A program made the position numbers and the translations under genes. From assembly GCF_900009135.1 (NCBI RefSeq), contig NZ_LT797686.1:1-42500 (forward strand): a stretch of DNA of 42,500 nucleotides, read 5' to 3'. This document shows positions 5,143 through 21,345 of the stretch, in pieces. Within the stretch, counting starts at the first letter, position 1. Each line of letters starts with the position of its first letter. This stretch comes from Planktothrix sp. PCC 11201. GTDB taxonomy: Bacteria; Cyanobacteriota; Cyanobacteriia; Cyanobacteriales; Microcoleaceae. The notes beneath the pieces were generated by a model that worked only from the letters and a program-made list of their open reading frames with translations, was not told the DNA's origin and searched no databases.

Positions 5143-5994
5143 ATGACATCTGCATTTGATCCGAATTTAGTTTTTTTGTTATACGACAACACCTTACCTG
5201 GGGACACCTTGACCAATGGTAACACAACGGTTCCCGGAGGTGATAGTACCGTTTCTGGTAATACGGGGGGAAACAGCAGCTTGAGTGGAAACCAGATTCC
5301 CCAAATCACTGATACCTTGGGTGCTAGTCTGACGGGAACTGCGGCTGCGGATATTATGCGAGGAAATATCGGCCGCGACAGTTTGTATGGCGGCGGAGGT
5401 GGAGACACAATTTTTGGTGATGACGGCGAAGATTTAATCGATGGGGAAGCTGGAAATGATTATATTAATGGGAATCAAGGTCGGGATTCTATTCTCGGTA
5501 GTGATGGGGATGATACCCTGTTTGGAGGGAGAGGAGCAGATACTTTAGAAGGTGGCAATGGCAAAGATTTACTGTCGGGAAATAACGATAATGATCTGTT
5601 GACCGGAGGGGATGATAATAATAATACCCTGTATGGTGGAGCCGGAGATGATTGTCTGGTTGGAGGAAATAAAGATGATTTTTTATCCGGCGATCGCGGT
5701 CAAGATATTTTAGTCGGGGGTGACGGAAAAGATACTTTCTTTATTTCGGTTAATTCTGGCAGTGGAAATCCGGCTTTAGCTGATATTATTTTAGACTATA
5801 ATCAAAATGATGATGTCATTTTGCTACCCAACGATTTGACCTTTAGTAAATTAAAATTTGAAACAGATAGCTTGAATGGAGTTAACGGTTTATTAATTCG
5901 GACAGATGATCGAGATAACCCTACTTACCTAGCGTTTATTCCTGGTTTTACAGGCAATTTAACATCGGGAAATTTCAAATCTCTACCGCAATAA
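5143..5994 (+). CDS. RTX-type calcium-binding repeat protein
   Basis: A 283-residue protein built on glycine- and aspartate-rich nonapeptides of the RTX kind (GGxGxDxUx), from about residue 65 to 205, for example [19 protein letters not shown] and [11 protein letters not shown]. In this family the repeats bind Ca2+ and fold as a parallel beta-roll after secretion. The N-terminal 60 residues are Ser/Thr/Gly/Asn-rich. The C-terminal 75 residues ([26 protein letters not shown]) form the usual RTX tail, which often carries an uncleaved type I secretion signal. No Sec signal peptide or enzymatic domain is visible and no export genes are nearby. The target and role are unknown. A second RTX gene lies 1.2 kb downstream on the other strand. 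Confidence 0.85.
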
Positions 5995-13729: not shown

Positions 13730-14257
13730 TTATAAAGAACCGAACCACACTAACCCGCCACTGATTAACAGTACGATGATTAAAGCAATCTCCAAAAATT
13801 GATTGTCCTGGCTCTTGACTCCATCCAAGTTATTTATAACCGGCGGAACCGAGGACTTGGGAATAGACCGAACGGTCGCAGCCGAATTGTTTTGAGATCG
13901 GGAATCTCCTTGGACATCCAGATGATCCAAATCAGGAATTTTTACAAATCCCTCTGGATCAATATAGAGTTTAGGAGCTTCTAGGACTTCGAGTAAACGA
14001 CGAGCCTGTTGACGAGTGCCAGTATTCGGATGACGAGTCAACTGTTTGCATAGAGCAATCGCATCTTGCCTAAGACCCGAGGCTTCCAAGGCGGTGACTA
14101 ACCACATTTGGATCTCTCCACCCAGACGGGAATTGGGTTCCACAGCCCGACTAGCCTGTTCTAAATATTGAACTGACTCTCGGTAACGCCCCCGTTCAAA
14201 GGCAAACTGACCCGCTTGATATGCAATTTTAACCTGGTCTAAGGGTTCTTGAGCCAC
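13730..14257 (-). CDS. TPR protein with C-terminal membrane anchor
   Basis: A 175-residue protein. Residues 8-95 form two to three tetratricopeptide-like helix pairs (AYQAGQFAFERGRYRESVQYLEQA, split here by its length into helix one AYQAGQFAFERG and helix two YRESVQYLEQA; then MWLVTALEASGL, DAIALCKQL). A polar linker follows, and the last 20 residues are a single membrane span (LEIALIIVLLISGGLVWF) ending GSL. This is the layout of a tail-anchored scaffold facing the cytoplasm. The function is unknown. It starts 12 bases after the ssb stop on the same strand and is probably co-transcribed with ssb, which makes its expression downstream of the intron. Confidence 0.75.
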   Translation of the reverse strand: MAQEPLDQVKIAYQAGQFAFERGRYRESVQYLEQASRAVEPNSRLGGEIQMWLVTALEASGLRQDAIALCKQLTRHPNTGTRQQARRLLEVLEAPKLYIDPEGFVKIPDLDHLDVQGDSRSQNNSAATVRSIPKSSVPPVINNLDGVKSQDNQFLEIALIIVLLISGGLVWFGSL

Positions 14258-14269
14258 GGTTTTCCTTAC

Positions 14270-14568
14270 TTAAAACTCATCATAGGTATTCCGAGGTGCG
14301 CCCTCATCCGAATCGCGCTTAGAACCCAATAAATCCAACTCATCAACCCGAATGACGGGTTTTGATCGTTGAGTTCCGGTATTACGATCTTGCCAATACT
14401 CAAACTTTAACACCCCTTTAATCCCAATTAAACTACCCTTACGGACATAGTTCGCTGCAACTTCTGCTGTTTTTCCCCAAATTTCCAAGTTAAACCAATC
14501 GGGCTGATCCGTTTTTCTCGTCCGACGGTTAACCGCCAAAGTTAAATTACAGACAACACTACCGGACT
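14270..14568 (-). CDS. ssb: Single-stranded DNA-binding protein, exon 2
   Basis: This is the 3' part of ssb, interrupted by a group II intron. In frame it begins with the last two bases of a split codon, then SGSVVCNLTLAVNRRT, WFNLEIWGKTAEVAANYV and GSLIGIKGVLKFEYWQDR: the OB-fold of a short cyanobacterial SSB. Joined to exon 1 (16750-16813) it gives 363 nt, 120 residues and a stop, with no mismatch in frame. SSB coats single-stranded DNA in replication and repair. A naive start at 14539 (MAVNRRTRK) would give only 89 residues without the first OB strands and should not be used. The tail ends NTYDEF, a weak form of the acidic SSB tip. Confidence 0.93.
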
Positions 14569-14610
14569 ATTACAGTCGATAGAAACGTCACCGTTTCCAC
14601 CTCTGGTTCA

Positions 14611-14644
14611 GAACCGTGCGTGAAAGTTTCCCCTCACACGGCTC
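14611..14644 (-). ncRNA. Group II intron domain V
   Basis: The 34-nt hairpin starts GAGCCGTGTGAGGGG, turns through a GAAA-type loop and returns TTTCACGCACGGTTC. It carries the catalytic AGC triad in its 5' strand. It lies 30 bases past the maturase stop codon, and domain VI plus the 3' splice site follow. Confidence 0.9.
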
Positions 14645-14674
14645 CTCAATGACTTGGCTAGTTACAGTACCTAT

Positions 14675-16102
14675 TTATGTGTTCAATGTCGCAGCAGTTT
14701 TGATTTTACTTTTTTGGTGTTTCTCCAGAATAGACTTGTTATCCTGGGTACAGAATATCCAGCCTAATCCTCTGTTGACCCCCCAGTATTTCGAGACGAC
14801 TTCGGTGTTATTTTGTCCGCGCCCCCTTCTGCTTTTTGCCCATCCTAATAATTTATGAAAGATGATGCTATCTATTTTATTGAAAGTTTCCTTGCTTGTT
14901 ACCGTTGAGTAATATGCTGCCCATTCCCTGATTAGAGGATTGAGTGCGTTAATTACTTGTTCTTGGCTTGAAGTATGGTTCCTTTCCAATAAGTCATCAA
15001 TCTTCCGTAGATGTTTTTGAATAGCTTCTTTACTGGGTTTTATGAGCGTTTTATATCCCCTTTTTCCTTCAGTCCCACCAACTGACCCACTTTGTTTATC
15101 ACTACATGGGTATTGTCGGATATTAAAACCGAGGAAATCAAATCCCGTATTTCCTTCATGTGATTTGAAGGTGTGAGTAATTTGGGTTTTACTGGCGGTT
15201 ATTCCCATTTCAGACAACCATTCTTCTATAACTGTTTTGGCTTCTAAAATTACTTCCAAGTCTTCATCCATGATCACAAAATCGTTAGCGTACCTGACAA
15301 AACTGATTGCTAGTTTTTGACTGGTTTTTCCGATTCTTCTGGAGAATTTGTTAGTAAGAATTTCTTCTAGGCCATGTAGGGCAATATTGGCTAATAATGG
15401 CGAGATTACCCCATCTTGGAGAGTTCCTTCTTCCGTCAGAAATAGGTTATTACCGTCCATTACTCCAGATTTTAACCAGGCTTTCACCTGTCTTCTGAAG
15501 GTTGAGGAGGTTTGTAATTTCTCCAACAGTTTTGAATGGTTGATTGGGTCTGAACACTTTTCAATATCAGCATCTAGCACATACTTGGGTTTTTGTGCGA
15601 TGTCATTGAAAATTGTCGCTATAGCGTCGCGTGCCGACCAACGGGGTCTGAATCCATAAGAGTTTGGCTCAAATTTTGCTTCCCACTCTGGTTCTAGTGC
15701 CAGTTTCATTAGGGCTTGTTTTGCTCTTTCTTTCATCGTAGGTATGCCCAGAGGTCTTTTTTCCTCTTTGCCCGGTTTTGGTATCCTTACCCGGTTTTTG
15801 GGTTGGGATGCGTCATTAAATCGCAACTCCTGGGCTAATTTTATTTTCTGGTAATTACGCAGACGTTTTACCCCGTCTGCCCCAGATTTATTGTTACCCT
15901 GATTATCTTGAGTTACTTTTCTGACGGCCAAAATTTTGCCATACCACGAATGGGTCAACAGCCTTTGTAACCTATGGACTGCTTTGACATCACCACGTTC
16001 AGAGGCTTGATAGATTCTCTTTTGGAGCTTGAAAACGGATCTCTTGGCTTTTGCCCAGTTTATCGTTTCCCATTCATACATCGGTTGATTAACCGTGTCC
16101 AT
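14675..16102 (-). CDS. Group II intron maturase, reverse-transcriptase motifs degenerate
   Basis: A 475-residue intron-encoded protein. The RT domain spans about residues 55-330 and domain X (maturase, ...LREWAAYY-type motif at IREWAAYYSTV) about 355-430. The RT signatures are altered: the family's KCFD is KCSD (residues 182-185), PQGG is LQDG (228-231) and YADD is YAND (271-274). The first aspartate of the paired catalytic site is thus lost. The protein ends soon after domain X, and the C-terminal HNH endonuclease of full-length cyanobacterial relatives is absent. The frame has no stop or frameshift, which suggests selection for the splicing (maturase) role. Loss of reverse transcription and mobility is inference. 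Confidence 0.9.
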   Translation of the reverse strand: MDTVNQPMYEWETINWAKAKRSVFKLQKRIYQASERGDVKAVHRLQRLLTHSWYGKILAVRKVTQDNQGNNKSGADGVKRLRNYQKIKLAQELRFNDASQPKNRVRIPKPGKEEKRPLGIPTMKERAKQALMKLALEPEWEAKFEPNSYGFRPRWSARDAIATIFNDIAQKPKYVLDADIEKCSDPINHSKLLEKLQTSSTFRRQVKAWLKSGVMDGNNLFLTEEGTLQDGVISPLLANIALHGLEEILTNKFSRRIGKTSQKLAISFVRYANDFVIMDEDLEVILEAKTVIEEWLSEMGITASKTQITHTFKSHEGNTGFDFLGFNIRQYPCSDKQSGSVGGTEGKRGYKTLIKPSKEAIQKHLRKIDDLLERNHTSSQEQVINALNPLIREWAAYYSTVTSKETFNKIDSIIFHKLLGWAKSRRGRGQNNTEVVSKYWGVNRGLGWIFCTQDNKSILEKHQKSKIKTAATLNT

Positions 16103-16749
16103 GACTTTTGTACCCTGACTTGATTGTCTATCTCCAAATCATTGTGATTCCGTCAGCATATCCTTTAGCTTTCCTAAAGGCGTTAGCTTCTGAATCAATC
16201 TCCCTTCTCGGTATCATGCGGCTGACTACCTGCTCAAGCTTCGACCTTCGGTGAGAGATTACCGAGAAGTTATCTCGTTCCTAATTCCTGCTTTGCGATG
16301 AGGTTAGAGTCCTGCTATCCATCGGGTTTCTGTGGGGATGCCTCTGGGTCAAATTTCGAGTTGCCCAGCCCAAATCCCTTGCCTTTTGGCCCAGCCGATA
16401 ACCTATGTAGGCTGTTATCAATAACGGTGGTTCAGTCACAGGTTCAGTTCCCTTACTCATGCTCATCTGGGCTAGAAGGGGTTCCCTAATAGGTTTAGAG
16501 TTACCTCCGTTATGCCCCGCTTCACCAGTTTGGTAGTCATCCTCCCCAGTGGGGGCATTGCTTCGTCTTGCATCTAAACGGTGGGAATTGAATTGGTGAA
16601 GATTTTGTTAAGATTTGGATTGTACTTAACATTTCTTCAATATCTCACCCACTCAGGAATTAAGTTGTCAAGGTTCTGTAGTTACCTACGTTTCCTTGCA
16701 AGCGTCACACCATCAGGGTTTGATGGCTTTCCCACTTAACGAGTCGCAC

Positions 16750-16813
16750 CGAAATATTTGACTTCTGGGTCGCCACCAGCGCGACCAACCAATGAAACAA
16801 TATTTAGGCTCAT
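16750..16813 (-). CDS. ssb: Single-stranded DNA-binding protein, exon 1
   Basis: This exon holds the start codon and 21 codons plus one base of ssb: MSLNIVSLVGRAGGDPEVKY followed by F and the G of a split codon. The LNxVxLVGRxGxDPEVKYF pattern is the first OB strand of cyanobacterial SSB. Splicing to exon 2 gives KYFESGSVV. No strong ribosome-binding site is visible before the ATG. The product is 120 residues, the usual size of the short cyanobacterial SSB. Confidence 0.92.
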
Positions 16814-16957
16814 AAGACAATGATCATGGAATAGTGGAAACTGAAGGTCTTCAGACCTTGGATGAAACCCAGGAATTAATGGAAGTAAATTCCTAGTATC
16901 TTTAAATTAATAACACAGTTGCCTACACCCAAGCACCGAATATTACTGAAGCTTTTT

Positions 16958-16985
16958 GGGTGGGGAGACCCCGCCCCTACAGGGA
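16958..16985. repeat. Palindromic repeat copy
   Basis: GGGTGGGGAGACCCC followed by GCCCCTACAGG is a diverged copy of the repeat at 1-63 and 1854-1890, sharing the GGAGACC centre and the CCCCTACAGG end. It lies between ssb exon 1 and the kinase gene. The kinase frame reads back through it without stop, so it could be mistaken for coding. Confidence 0.65.
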
Positions 16986-17087
16986 TTTTATTTTTATGAG
17001 CCTCTATTTTTGTTGCTTTCGTGTCTGGAGTGCTATTATTATCACAGGTTTTCAAATTTTCAACCTAGATCTGGGTTCTCGATCAAT

Positions 17088-19124
17088 GTGAGTTATTGCC
17101 TTAATCCTAAGTGTCCAAATCCAACTGATCCGGCAAACGAGAATCGGCGCACTTGCTGTCAATGTGGCTCAGAACTTTTGCTGGAAGGACGGTATCGTGT
17201 GATCAAACAACTGGGAGGAGGAGGTTTTGGCAAAACATTTGAAATTGATGATCAAGGCAAATGTAAGGTTGTAAAAGTTTTATTAAAAAACCATCCTAAA
17301 GCTGTCGCTTTGTTCAAACAAGAAGCGAAAGTTTTGAGTCAGCTTAATCATCCAGGAATTCCTAAAGTTGATCCCGATGGCTATTTTACCTATCTTCCCA
17401 AAGGGAGTGACGAAGCCCTTCACTGTTTAGTGATGGAGAAAATTGAAGGGCTAAATTTACAGGACTGGATGAAGGAACGAAAAAAAGAACCCATCAGTCA
17501 AGAACACGCTTTGGAATGGTTAAGACAACTAACTGAGATCCTGGAGCAAGTTCATAATTTGCAATACTTCCATCGGGATATTAAGCCTCAGAATATTATG
17601 CGGAAACCCAATGGACAATTAGTATTGATTGATTTTGGAACCGCCAGGGAAGTTTCGGGAACCTATATCGCTAAGGTAGAACAGGGGCAAAATGTAACTG
17701 GGATTGTTTCCCCTGGATATACACCCCCAGAACAAACGAATGGGAAAGCTGTTCCTCAATCCGATTTTTTTGCCCTGGGACGAACTTTTATTTATTTATT
17801 AACGGGAAAACCTCCCACTGCTTATCCAGAAAATCCTCGAACTGGAAAGTTATTATGGCGAAAGGGCGCGCCCAATCTTTCTGATCAATTTGCGGGAACT
17901 ATTGATTTTTTGATGGCTCCTTTTCCGGGTAATCGCCCTCAGACTCCACAAGCAATCTTGAAATGTTTAGAAGATATTAGACCTCTAGGTGAGGAAAAAG
18001 AAGTTCCCCCGTCTTCCCCCACGGGCAAAAAGCAAGTCGAGCAAAACTGGAATAGTTGGTTTAATTTTTCTATTCCTAGACTGACATTTCCTAAAATTCA
18101 GCTTAAATATTTCTGGGTTTTGGGAACATCCTTAATGGTATTAACTGGAATTTATACACAGGTTGATGGTTATATCCGTTATGGATTTATTCCGGCTAAT
18201 CCAATTTTAATTTTGAAAGGGTTGCCAGGCAGTATTTTTTTAGAGAGCTACGAACGAGCCGTTGGTGAAATTTATGCTATTGTCATTAGCCCCGATAATA
18301 AAACCCTGGCTGTGGGGAGTTTTGGGGCAATTAAAATTTGGGATTTAACAACAGATGTCAAACCACGAACAATTCCAGCCCATTCCAGTTGGGTCAAAGC
18401 CTTGGCTATTAGTCCCGACGGTAAAATTATAGCCAGTGGTAGTAATGATAAAACGATTCGTCTGTGGGGTTTGAAGAATGGAAATAGAATCCGAACGATT
18501 GAAGGACATACTGAAGGTGTAAATATAGTTATTTTTAGTCCTGACGGTCAGACCTTAGCTAGTGGCAGTGACGATAAAACGATTCTCCTTTCGCCTTTAA
18601 ACACAGGATCTCGACAATTCAAATTTGCGGGTCATGAAGGCGCAATTCAGGCCCTGGCATTTAGTCCCGATGGTCAAACCCTAGCCAGTGGAGGTTCAGA
18701 CCAAACAATTCGGTTATGGAATTTGGAAACAGGAACTCGCAAGCGGAGTATCTCAGGTCATGAAGGTACTGTTAATGCCCTGGTTTATCATCCAGACGGT
18801 AAAACCCTAATCAGCGCTGGTGATGATGGCACTATTCGGCTATGGAAACCAGATACGGGGGAACAAAAACAGGTCTGGAGAGCTAATAATAATCCTGTGA
18901 AGTCATTGGCGATCACCAAGGATGGTAAAACTTTGGTTAGTGGAGGTGATAGTGTGATTATTTGGGATCTAAAAACGGGCAAAAAACTGGCAACCCTATG
19001 GGGTCATGACAAGCCAATTAATGCTTTAGCAGTCAGTTCAAATGGCGAAGTTGTTGTTAGTGGCAGTGAAGATAAAACTATTAAAATTTGGCGCATGCCT
19101 CAGTCAGTTATTAGTAAAAAGTAA
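17088..19124 (+). CDS. Ser/Thr protein kinase with WD40 beta-propeller
   Basis: A 678-residue kinase of the cyanobacterial Hanks type. It opens with a four-cysteine zinc-ribbon-like motif (CLNPKCPNP...CCQCG), then the kinase domain (about residues 30-300) with GGGGFGKTF, the catalytic loop FHRDIKPQN, DFGTAR and the P+1 region GYTPPEQ. A single membrane span (FWVLGTSLMVLTGIYTQV) follows, then seven WD40 repeats (HSSWVKALAISPDGK, HEGAIQALAFSPDGQ and others) forming one propeller, probably outside the cytoplasm. I chose the GTG at 17088 (reading as MSYCLNPKC) because that is the usual start of this family and the upstream frame is repeat DNA. The substrate is unknown. Confidence 0.9.
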   Translation: MSYCLNPKCPNPTDPANENRRTCCQCGSELLLEGRYRVIKQLGGGGFGKTFEIDDQGKCKVVKVLLKNHPKAVALFKQEAKVLSQLNHPGIPKVDPDGYFTYLPKGSDEALHCLVMEKIEGLNLQDWMKERKKEPISQEHALEWLRQLTEILEQVHNLQYFHRDIKPQNIMRKPNGQLVLIDFGTAREVSGTYIAKVEQGQNVTGIVSPGYTPPEQTNGKAVPQSDFFALGRTFIYLLTGKPPTAYPENPRTGKLLWRKGAPNLSDQFAGTIDFLMAPFPGNRPQTPQAILKCLEDIRPLGEEKEVPPSSPTGKKQVEQNWNSWFNFSIPRLTFPKIQLKYFWVLGTSLMVLTGIYTQVDGYIRYGFIPANPILILKGLPGSIFLESYERAVGEIYAIVISPDNKTLAVGSFGAIKIWDLTTDVKPRTIPAHSSWVKALAISPDGKIIASGSNDKTIRLWGLKNGNRIRTIEGHTEGVNIVIFSPDGQTLASGSDDKTILLSPLNTGSRQFKFAGHEGAIQALAFSPDGQTLASGGSDQTIRLWNLETGTRKRSISGHEGTVNALVYHPDGKTLISAGDDGTIRLWKPDTGEQKQVWRANNNPVKSLAITKDGKTLVSGGDSVIIWDLKTGKKLATLWGHDKPINALAVSSNGEVVVSGSEDKTIKIWRMPQSVISKK

Positions 19125-19235: not shown

Positions 19236-21185
19236 TTAGAAACGGAATTGAGTCCGCAAAGTTCCGACCACGATTGTATTGTTGTTGCTATTGTGATCGG
19301 GGTTGGTTACGACATAAAAACCAGGAGTAATGGCGATGTAGTCGTTGATGGGATAGCGGTAGAAACCTTCAATGTGAATGGAGGTATCTTTATCTTCCAA
19401 AGCACTGATATCATGGCTGGTTACTTGAGGAGGCATACCGACAATTAAGCCACCCAAGCCACCTTCTTTCAGGATATCAGGGAATGCCAAAGAAACAGCC
19501 CAGTTAATAATGGTCGCACTGTCATTACCACCATTCTTTTGGTTGGCCCAGGTGGAACCAAACCAGCCACCCAACTCAAAGTTTTTGGAAATCCGCCAGT
19601 TGCCTTGTAACCCTACGTTTTCGCTGGTTGTAGCATTCTCACCAAAAGGTTTATTGGCAATCCAACTTCCTGTGCCTCCAGAGACAAACACACTACCATT
19701 GGTGAAGTAGCGGTGGTTATACTCTAAACCGATACCAATATTAGGATTGGGTTTAAACACCAATTGCAGACCTGTGGTATAGCCACCATTGAAAACACCA
19801 TTTCCTTGGCTGGCAAACTCGGCTCGATCCGTGAGGTAGCCTAAATTGACTTTAAACTGATCACTGAAGGCATATTTCAGACCAACCCCAGTTCCATCTG
19901 GGCCACGGAAGGTTGTCGGGTTATACCGACCAAAGCGGGAAAGCGCCCCATCCCCAGAACCACCAAAAGGTGTTATGGAGTCATAGATATCATCACCGTT
20001 AAGACCCTTAGCTCCAATAAAGACATTGCCTTTACCATTACTGATAGGGTAGCGGTAGTACAATTCATCCAATACGACACCATTGTCGACACCATCGATG
20101 GCGGTACGACTCATCAAGGTATTGGTGATATTGAAGGCAGACAGGTTAGGAATAGATTGAGCCTGTAAACGAGTTCTCAACAAATCCTGACCTGTGAAGC
20201 TGGTATCAAAGTTTAAACGGGCGCGGTAGCCAAAATAGGCTTCCGTGGGATCACTATCCTGGTGAGCGAACTGACCCACTACGTTATAAGTAGCCCGATC
20301 TCCGGCGGCGTCTCCACCCCAGAAGATGACTTCTCCACGCAGTTTAGTAGTGGTAGAGAATTGATTAGCTTCTAATTCGGCGGTTCTAGCTTCTAAGGCA
20401 TAAACACGACCGCGCAGAGTGGCTAATTCCGCCGCAAATTCTTCTTGTAACCGTTGCAGAACGGCTAAATCTTCCCGGGTGACTAAATTGGCTACAGACG
20501 CCGCAATTAGTTCGTTAACCCGTTCTAAACAGGCATTTAAACCCGCCGCAAACTCAAAACGAGTCATGGCCCGGTTGCCTTTGAAGGTTCCATCGGGATA
20601 ACCCGCGATACAACCATAGCGTTCAACCAAGGATTGCAAAGCCTGGAATGCCCAGTCTGTGGGTTGAACGTCCGATAATTGAGAAACTGAAGTGACTTGC
20701 TCTAGGGCATCGGCAGCTTCAGAATATTCGTTAATTTTTTCTAAGCCTGAGACGCTGGTTTCGCTCGGCTCGGTCGATGACATCTGAGCCACTTGGAACT
20801 CAGAAGCTTGAGCAGTTTGTAGTGGGGCCGAAGCCTCTGAAGTTGAGCTGTTTAACTGTTGAGCCGTGGCAACAGTCTGCGGTTTGTTTTCGTTTGTAGC
20901 CTCACCATTGACTAAATTGGTGGCTTCAACCGGAACATCAGGGGTCAAAGACAGGGCGAGTTGCTCTGTCTTTGACTCGGAATTGGCTTGATCTTGCAAC
21001 TGAGTATCATGTCCAGAGGTCGGAACTGCACGGGCAGCTTCGACGGTGACGGTTGCCATATCTGTAGCATTTGCCAATTTCTCCGATGGAGCCTCAGTTG
21101 CTAAGGCTGCATTAGTTAAGAGAATAGCCGCTCCCAGAATGCCTGGACTATGCTTTAGAGTGTTCAATAAAACTTTGTTCATCAT
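19236..21185 (-). CDS. Iron-uptake-type outer-membrane porin with SLH domain
   Basis: A 649-residue cyanobacterial major porin. It has a signal peptide (MMNKVLLNTLKHSPG, then ILGAAILLTNAALA), a long Ala/Thr/Glu-rich linker, an SLH domain (about residues 170-225: LSDVQPTDWAFQALQSLVER, CIAGYPDGTFKGNRAMTRFE) that binds the cell wall, a coiled coil (about 245-275) and an OprB-type 16-strand barrel to the final LRTQFRF. The terminal phenylalanine is the usual outer-membrane assembly signal. Related proteins conduct ions and are linked to iron uptake. ATG codons at 21182 and 21185 are both possible. The longer frame from 21224 adds residues before the signal peptide and is unlikely. Confidence 0.92.
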   Translation of the reverse strand: MMNKVLLNTLKHSPGILGAAILLTNAALATEAPSEKLANATDMATVTVEAARAVPTSGHDTQLQDQANSESKTEQLALSLTPDVPVEATNLVNGEATNENKPQTVATAQQLNSSTSEASAPLQTAQASEFQVAQMSSTEPSETSVSGLEKINEYSEAADALEQVTSVSQLSDVQPTDWAFQALQSLVERYGCIAGYPDGTFKGNRAMTRFEFAAGLNACLERVNELIAASVANLVTREDLAVLQRLQEEFAAELATLRGRVYALEARTAELEANQFSTTTKLRGEVIFWGGDAAGDRATYNVVGQFAHQDSDPTEAYFGYRARLNFDTSFTGQDLLRTRLQAQSIPNLSAFNITNTLMSRTAIDGVDNGVVLDELYYRYPISNGKGNVFIGAKGLNGDDIYDSITPFGGSGDGALSRFGRYNPTTFRGPDGTGVGLKYAFSDQFKVNLGYLTDRAEFASQGNGVFNGGYTTGLQLVFKPNPNIGIGLEYNHRYFTNGSVFVSGGTGSWIANKPFGENATTSENVGLQGNWRISKNFELGGWFGSTWANQKNGGNDSATIINWAVSLAFPDILKEGGLGGLIVGMPPQVTSHDISALEDKDTSIHIEGFYRYPINDYIAITPGFYVVTNPDHNSNNNTIVVGTLRTQFRF

Positions 21186-21345
21186 CTCAATTCTCACACC
21201 GACACTTAAAATACCACAAAGCAAGGGAGTCCCCAGCTCGACTGAACCAATAGTATCATATCTTAACTAGAGTTTTTCCAGAGTCAAGTGGGGGAACAAA
21301 AGTTAAGACTGGTTTTTTACCGGATTCAATCGGTATAACCCAGAC

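Follow-up and report, generated by a model that had tools for sequence, protein, structure and literature searches.

The stretch analysed here, referred to as the window, comprises 42,500 nt at positions 1 to 42,500 of contig NZ_LT797686.1 from Planktothrix sp. PCC 11201 (assembly GCF_900009135.1). This genome is G000 in what follows, and other G and L numbers denote compared genomes and loci. On its minus strand the window carries ssb, the gene for the single-stranded DNA-binding protein (SSB), which is split by a group II intron with an intron-encoded protein (IEP). The features of the locus, including the predicted intron-binding site (IBS1) and exon-binding site (EBS1) and the relevant open reading frames (ORFs), are as follows.

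16750..16813, minus strand: ssb exon 1 (64 nt), codons 1-21 and the first base of codon 22; frame joined to exon 2 and aligned with intron-free orthologs
16755-16750, minus strand: IBS1, the final six bases of exon 1 (ATTTCG)
14569..16749, minus strand: group II intron, 2181 nt, GUGCG...AU; ends conserved in same-site relatives, Rfam RF00029 at 62.1 bits
16353..16358, minus strand: predicted EBS1 (CGAAAT), six Watson-Crick pairs with IBS1, in a loop conserved across 11 same-site introns
14675..16102, minus strand: IEP of 475 aa with Pfam domains RVT_N, RVT_1 and GIIM and no HNH region; 280.8 against an NCBIfam equivalog cut-off of 300 (below it)
15281..15292, minus strand: reverse transcriptase (RT) active-site motif YAND for YADD (Asp 273 to Asn), from alignment to the YADD of solved RTs
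14569..14646, minus strand: intron domains 5 and 6, from RF00029 and a fold shared by 11 introns; the A at 14576 is the predicted branch point
14270..14568, minus strand: ssb exon 2 (299 nt), last two bases of codon 22 to the stop; Pfam SSB, E 5.7e-20; spliced product
14270..14539, minus strand: spurious 89-aa ORF with a TTG start, expected from mechanical annotation; under the cyanobacterial ssb cut-off
13730..14257, minus strand: TPR-protein gene directly downstream of ssb, marking the orthologous locus; adjoins ssb in three of three other split and five of five intron-free alleles of the genus

The ATG at 16813 opens a frame of 21 codons and one base, which is followed by GTGCGACTCG, the usual 5′ start of group II introns. 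Unspliced, this frame continues for four further codons and then stops. The 3′ end of the intron, CGACTGTAAT, lies at 14569 and the ssb frame picks up at 14568. The joined exons give 363 nt, or 120 codons and a stop, encoding a 120-aa SSB with C-terminal YDEF. A preliminary description of this DNA had proposed these exon and intron coordinates, the 2181-nt gap and the 120-residue product, and each was confirmed exactly (64 + 2181 + 299 nt). The spliced protein scored 203.1 bits against the NCBIfam cyanobacterial ssb equivalog (NF005674) and passed its cut-off of 161, whereas the 89-aa ORF scored 139 bits and failed. Since the two fall on opposite sides of the cut-off, the earlier remark that annotation would call an 89-residue SSB with a false start was right.

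Within the genus, ssb is split at codon 22 in four of the ten genomes (G000, G002, G004 and G009) and is intact, at 119-120 aa, in five (G001, G003, G005, G007 and G008). No canonical ssb was found in the remaining genome, G006 (73% complete), only a paralog-type match. One of the split alleles belongs to Planktothrix rubescens PCC 7821 (record LR882958.1; G002), which has an intron at the same place in ssb as the window. The five intact alleles cross the splice junction without a gap, and 71-80 of their first 90 bases are those of the window. Comparison with uninterrupted relatives had been suggested as a check, and all five match the predicted junction; exon 1 as a chance match is rejected by them. 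Together with the join itself, they also support the proposed phase-1 insertion, in which splicing restores a GAG codon.

The intron RNA was examined with Rfam and by comparison with introns at the same site. Intron_gpII (RF00029) matched 14646-14569 on the minus strand with 62.1 bits against a gathering score of 40, and the match ends at the predicted 3′ splice site, in agreement with the earlier assignment to group II. The intron ends, GTGCG...AT, fit the 5′ GUGYG and 3′ AY consensus and are kept at the same site in relatives. The consensus fold of 11 same-site introns contains 28 pairs, nine of which have pair-keeping changes on both sides; one pair of the domain 5 and 6 consensus is broken in two of the 11. 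On the 3′ strand of domain 6 a GA is unpaired, and, counting from the 3′ end of the intron, its A is base eight. Ten of the 11 same-site introns having the EBS1 motif can form six EBS1-IBS1 pairs when G-U is allowed, and the Hydrococcus intron has one mismatch. Covariation between the two elements is weak: G002 has ACTTTG/CGAAGT where the window has ATTTCG/CGAAAT, and elsewhere EBS1 CGAAGT pairs with IBS1 ATTTTG or ATTTCG through G-U. The motif is lacking in the intron of G027 (L126:2346-3505), a different, 1160-nt intron without an intron-protein match that lies one base upstream of the codon-22 site.

Whether the cell has a substitute for the split gene was addressed by genome searches, which turned up no further canonical ssb in G000, G002 or G004. 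For G000, where the preliminary description had called for such a search, the only further member of the family was a divergent gene (G000:C6:826817; 38.7 bits against an ssb cut-off of 53.95). A paralog-type match of this kind is present in all ten genus genomes, and so does not look like a spare ssb copy. As a candidate for the true ssb it was rejected, because it is below the cut-off and coexists with intact ssb in the genus. G009 has an additional intact ssb (L016; 61% identical), so the claim of a lone canonical ssb is confined to G000, G002 and G004 and does not apply to G009. Comparison of the spliced window ssb with the five intron-free alleles gave ratios of nonsynonymous to synonymous change (dN/dS) of 0.05-0.12, which indicates purifying selection and lends support to the earlier proposal that the host would depend on splicing.

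These data bear on the possibility that the insertion is a recent disruption, in which ssb would be a pseudogene, the intron and IEP would be decaying and the cell would use the paralog or a plasmid SSB. An SSB-family paralog does exist, polyploidy could tolerate a broken copy (PMC8919778), and nine near-invariant positions of the IEP are altered. On the other hand, the spliced ssb is free of frameshifts and stops and its dN/dS is low, and the paralog has the shortcomings just given. The IEP ORF likewise contains no stops, where simulated neutral change yields about ten (at 0.18 changes per base) or about three (at 0.05). With frames open and dN/dS at this level, ssb as a pseudogene was rejected, and we regard the disruption scenario as scarcely credible.

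The nearest solved structure to the window IEP is 6me0, annotated 'maturase reverse transcriptase' (E 2.4e-83), which we take to be the TeI4h protein; the structure match places the IEP near 6me0, and a tree places it near cyanobacterial IEPs. When the IEP is aligned to the solved RTs 6me0 and 6ar1, positions D273-D274 coincide with the Asp pair of their YADD and D179 with the Asp of motif A; these are the catalytic Asp residues. The window protein has nine changes at positions at least 95% conserved among the other proteins, including F184S, G230D and D273N, and it also has G154R, R155W and a two-residue gap. It stops before the C-terminal HNH-like region that is found in nine of 13 same-site relatives, the region being recognised there by a C-terminal Cys-x2-Cys motif. 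Pfam HNH scored over its cut-off in one and just under it in the other of two motif-bearing IEPs and was absent in three truncated ones. With the Asp-to-Asn change, the other altered RT residues and the missing endonuclease region, the IEP can probably no longer copy or cut DNA. The intron is therefore probably immobile, with its protein probably kept as a maturase only.

Alternatively, YAND and the missing endonuclease could be tolerated, with the IEP still an active RT and the intron still moving. Introns without an endonuclease domain can move, as two papers describe (PMC4424553, PMC8919778), and TeI4h with YAGD is reported to have kept very low but measurable mobility (PMC2882425). In the window, however, the residue replaced by Asn corresponds to the first Asp of YADD in solved RTs, F184S, G154R, R155W, G230D and the two-residue gap add to this change, and a single copy of the codon-22 family is seen in the genome. 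Continued activity thus appears very unlikely.

To place the window intron among its relatives, named genomes were scanned with the four IEPs of the genus. Among the best 80 of 305 confirmed loci, the eight best matches (74-78% identical) are without exception in ssb, inserted at codon 22. They come from UBA11370, two Symploca, P. rubescens, Oscillatoria S11, UBA8803, Hydrococcus rivularis and Limnofasciculus; in H. rivularis the host ssb is divergent and the exon 1 match weak, and at the two Symploca loci the contig ends ahead of exon 2. These eight together with the IEPs of the window, G004, G009, G205 and G158 make up 13 complete codon-22 IEPs, which form one group in a 95-protein tree with a Shimodaira-Hasegawa-like approximate likelihood ratio (SH-aLRT) support of 91, or 96 without the long-branched G205. 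The tree kept 78 of 79 other IEPs (one short protein was dropped) and left out a G266 fragment, and a partial codon-22 protein of G162 (88 aa) is not among the 13. Loci recorded twice were counted once (L046=L013, L044=L140, L047=L143, L048=L137, L049=L139, L051=L125). The nearest neighbour of the family in the tree, L053:5246-7762, comes from a Synechococcaceae metagenome-assembled genome, where the intron interrupts a divergent ssb near codon 50.

Of the 291 genomes scanned across the order, at least 24 have a split ssb; the insertion lies at codon 22 or one base away from it in at least 15 of them, near codon 50 in at least 12 and at both places in at least three. These split-ssb counts are lower bounds from a scan in which 27 of the 291 genomes (mainly those with weak matches) and four of the eight with none were searched again. 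The second site of G230 was read from the last bases of its contig, and the gene is cut by contig ends in G162, G179, G193, G230 and G266. A strict junction pattern applied phylum-wide was found in at least five of 386 genomes, again a lower bound because insertions one base off are missed; it revealed introns without an ORF.

The distances between alleles speak against vertical inheritance from a single insertion. Between G004 and G009, synonymous divergence (dS) is 0.07 for the IEP and 1.07 for ssb, and the introns are 95.7% identical where ssb is 78.9% identical. The IEPs being far closer than their host genes, this pair records recent horizontal homing. The relation is reversed between G000 and G002 (dS 1.10 for the IEP, 0.36 for ssb), so the introns of the window and of P. 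rubescens were probably gained separately. A single vertical inheritance within the genus was rejected, as IEP and ssb distances disagree in both directions.

Several ssb genes hold more than one intron. Limnofasciculus (L051:2954-7547) has two tandem group II introns with a one-nucleotide exon between them (G at 5380); the upstream one probably must splice first so that the other can see its IBS1. In Trichodesmium a twintron is spliced in vivo, according to one report (PMC4649490). In UBA8803 (L049:7885-10243) one intron occupies codon 22 and another a third insertion site, near codon 57, and Oscillatoria S11 (L048) and UBA11370 (L044; the second cut by the contig end) have two each. As to the neighbourhood of ssb, the upstream kinase gene flanks it in four of the eight other genus alleles examined. 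In the window, 16956-19124 encodes a protein kinase fused to WD40 repeats and 19236-21224 an OprB porin with an SLH domain, both ordinary-looking neighbours.

The loss of RT residues is a recurrent feature of the codon-22 family. The triad D179-D273-D274 is broken in five of the 13 IEPs compared to two of 82 others, four of which come from other ssb insertions (Fisher 4e-4, which ignores relatedness and uses comparators picked by similarity). The losses are D273N in the window, D273N with a motif 4 gap in Limnofasciculus, D274N in G002, D179H in G205 and D179R in G158. No two of these five IEPs are sisters in a tree in which several nodes are weak and G205 is a long branch at the outgroup. The HNH-like region is missing in four of the five, including the window. 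All 13 ORFs are nevertheless open over at least 474 codons. In a codon model, the ratio of nonsynonymous to synonymous rates (omega) on the window IEP branch was 0.127 against a background of 0.097, and omega = 1 was rejected (p 3e-15); by part of the protein, point estimates on the five RT-dead branches were 0.09-0.22.

A more extreme form was found in the genus coded g57: all eight of its genomes covered by the order scan harbour a 1375-1469-nt intron near ssb codon 50, each with an open ORF of 200-227 aa (loci L128, L129, L130, L131, L135, L136, L138 and L048:8503-9111). Three of the eight proteins were scanned; RVT_N matched at E 4.4e-18 or better, RVT_1 did not match, and GIIM matched at 5.2e-6 to 2.5e-4, over the cut-off in two of the three. 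A profile of the C-terminal part, built from six of the eight sequences, matched one built from domain X in seven intron proteins with probability 94 and E 1.4e-7. The protein is under purifying selection: omega was 0.29 in the N part (p 7e-12) and 0.32 in domain X (p 9e-11), compared to 1.27 in the linker (p 0.09). A cruder pairwise count gave 0.65 (from few synonymous changes), 0.27 and 1.10, respectively. In G087 this mini-maturase is the sole GIIM match in the genome.

Two further genomes, G148 and G288 (L144, L145), have a codon-22 ssb intron of 739-740 nt with no open stretch of more than 44 codons. It belongs to the same group II family, its identity to the Hydrococcus intron being 80.6% over 648 nt and reaching 92% in the last 88, and the two exons of the split gene are the only ssb matches in these genomes. 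G148 has one GIIM protein (L146:2599-4299), which has YAHD for YADD and whose intron lies between genes according to the ORF list. Its G288 ortholog (L147:2848-4548) also has YAHD, the pair has a dN/dS of 0.24, and G288 has seven further GIIM matches. Our guess is that the YAHD protein serves the ORF-less ssb intron in trans. The apparent loss of RT function is shared among the g57 helpers and, likewise, between the two YAHD proteins, and selection after the loss appears clearer in these cases than in the window.

Several observations weigh against reading the window IEP as a maturase retained for an indispensable ssb. A search for EBS2-IBS2 across the same-site introns gave no consistent EBS2. 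On the window branch, omega of the RT part (0.120) is close to that of the X part (0.116), so that no signal of maturase-only retention is seen. The branch carries about 0.6 neutral changes per base, many of which may predate the insertion (ssb dS to G002 is only 0.36), and the low omega may for this reason largely reflect a mobile period. The split-ssb genomes G009, G158, G162 and G189 also carry intact, more distant ssb copies, those of the last three being 54-63% identical to the window's. Finally, eight other GIIM proteins in the window genome, 41-51% identical over their best matches, could help splicing in trans. The intron might thus be spliced with the protein of another intron while its own IEP is irrelevant and drifting, and the ORF-less ssb introns do occur in two genomes holding other intron proteins. 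The window IEP ORF, however, is open and shows no sign of neutrality. One cyanobacterial IEP was strongly specific for its cognate intron in the mobility tests described, where other IEPs were less so (PMC2882425). Service entirely in trans therefore seems unlikely.

Taken together, we think it highly likely that an intron of a homing family sits in the only canonical ssb found in this genome, that ribozyme and IEP splice it and that the IEP probably acts as maturase only. As judged from sequence, the course of events would be as follows. An intron of an ssb-specific homing family would have inserted after the first base of codon 22. The ssb pre-mRNA would be spliced by the intron ribozyme, assisted by the 475-aa IEP, to yield the 120-aa SSB that the cell would need. 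In the window lineage the IEP would then have lost DNA copying and cutting, leaving the intron immobile and the protein kept for splicing; the cell probably keeps it only for splicing an essential gene. We read the ssb introns more generally as the repeated conversion of mobile into splicing-only introns in an essential bacterial gene. Somewhat more tentatively, we favour the view that cyanobacterial ssb presents a natural series of intron domestication, with repeated homing entry and stepwise loss of mobility while splicing is kept. The series would run from full RT-X-HNH proteins, through loss of a catalytic Asp, to loss of both Asp and HNH as in the window. Later stages would be the mini-maturase of about 200 aa (RVT_N and domain X), with no RT domain left, and introns devoid of an ORF, for which an RT-dead protein encoded elsewhere in the genome might act in trans.

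Group II introns in bacterial replication or repair genes have precedents in Trichodesmium, where they occur in dnaN and ribonucleotide-reductase genes, and reportedly in recA of Geobacillus kaustophilus. These are other host genes than ssb. Most bacterial introns lie outside housekeeping genes, with some inside, particularly in cyanobacteria, as summarised in a 2015 review (PMC4424553). Intron-bearing cyanobacterial genomes mostly have CL-type introns, with polyploidy suggested as a possible reason (PMC8919778), and ORF-less derivatives are described as common in the Thermosynechococcus elongatus genome (PMC2882425). TeI4h, described in the latter paper, is close to the window case: a cyanobacterial group II intron in an essential gene, whose IEP has YAGD for YADD and whose mobility is very low (PMC2882425). 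Its host is a putatively essential single-copy tRNA-Ile gene in one genome, whereas the window host is a protein gene; the ssb introns also differ in forming a same-site family over several genera, with catalytic losses on multiple branches and loss of HNH. RT-degenerate IEPs are rare in bacteria, and the 2015 review names one example (PMC4424553). This is O.i.I2 of Oceanobacillus iheyensis, which like the window intron lies in a protein gene (RadC) and has an open ORF for an IEP without YADD; it is an ML-class intron and a single case, given there as the only one known from bacteria in 2015 (PMC4424553). In contrast, the host here is ssb and five of 13 proteins at one site are affected.

MatK of the chloroplast trnK intron has lost RT motifs, kept domain X and serves essential-gene splicing, as outlined in the same review (PMC4424553); in the window IEP, RT residues are changed and GIIM is kept. 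MatK is organellar and serves several introns, whereas the ssb intron is bacterial and present or absent within one genus. No ssb intron was recognised in the openly licensed literature searched, a search that did not extend to supplementary survey tables, which may list one; the word ssb is absent from the main texts of PMC4649490, PMC8919778, PMC4424553, PMC12702839 and PMC4853749. Nor did the mini-maturase form turn up in literature searches. Introns in bacterial housekeeping genes are thus known; what appears to be new is that ssb is the host, that one site is hit repeatedly, that so many of the proteins are RT-dead and, most of all, that a helper exists with no RT domain.

For annotation, ssb will be mis-called wherever exon 1 is overlooked. 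The route from selfish to splicing-only intron has mostly been argued from organelles, where the steps are old. With cyanobacterial ssb, a single gene of free-living bacteria seems to display several steps of domestication side by side, with intron-free congeners as controls, and some carriers have strain-collection numbers (Planktothrix rubescens PCC 7821, Hydrococcus rivularis NIES-593). The RT-less mini-maturase could show the minimal size of a protein that supports splicing. If this interpretation is true, the ssb series would parallel, in bacteria, the route that led to MatK and to host-borne maturases.

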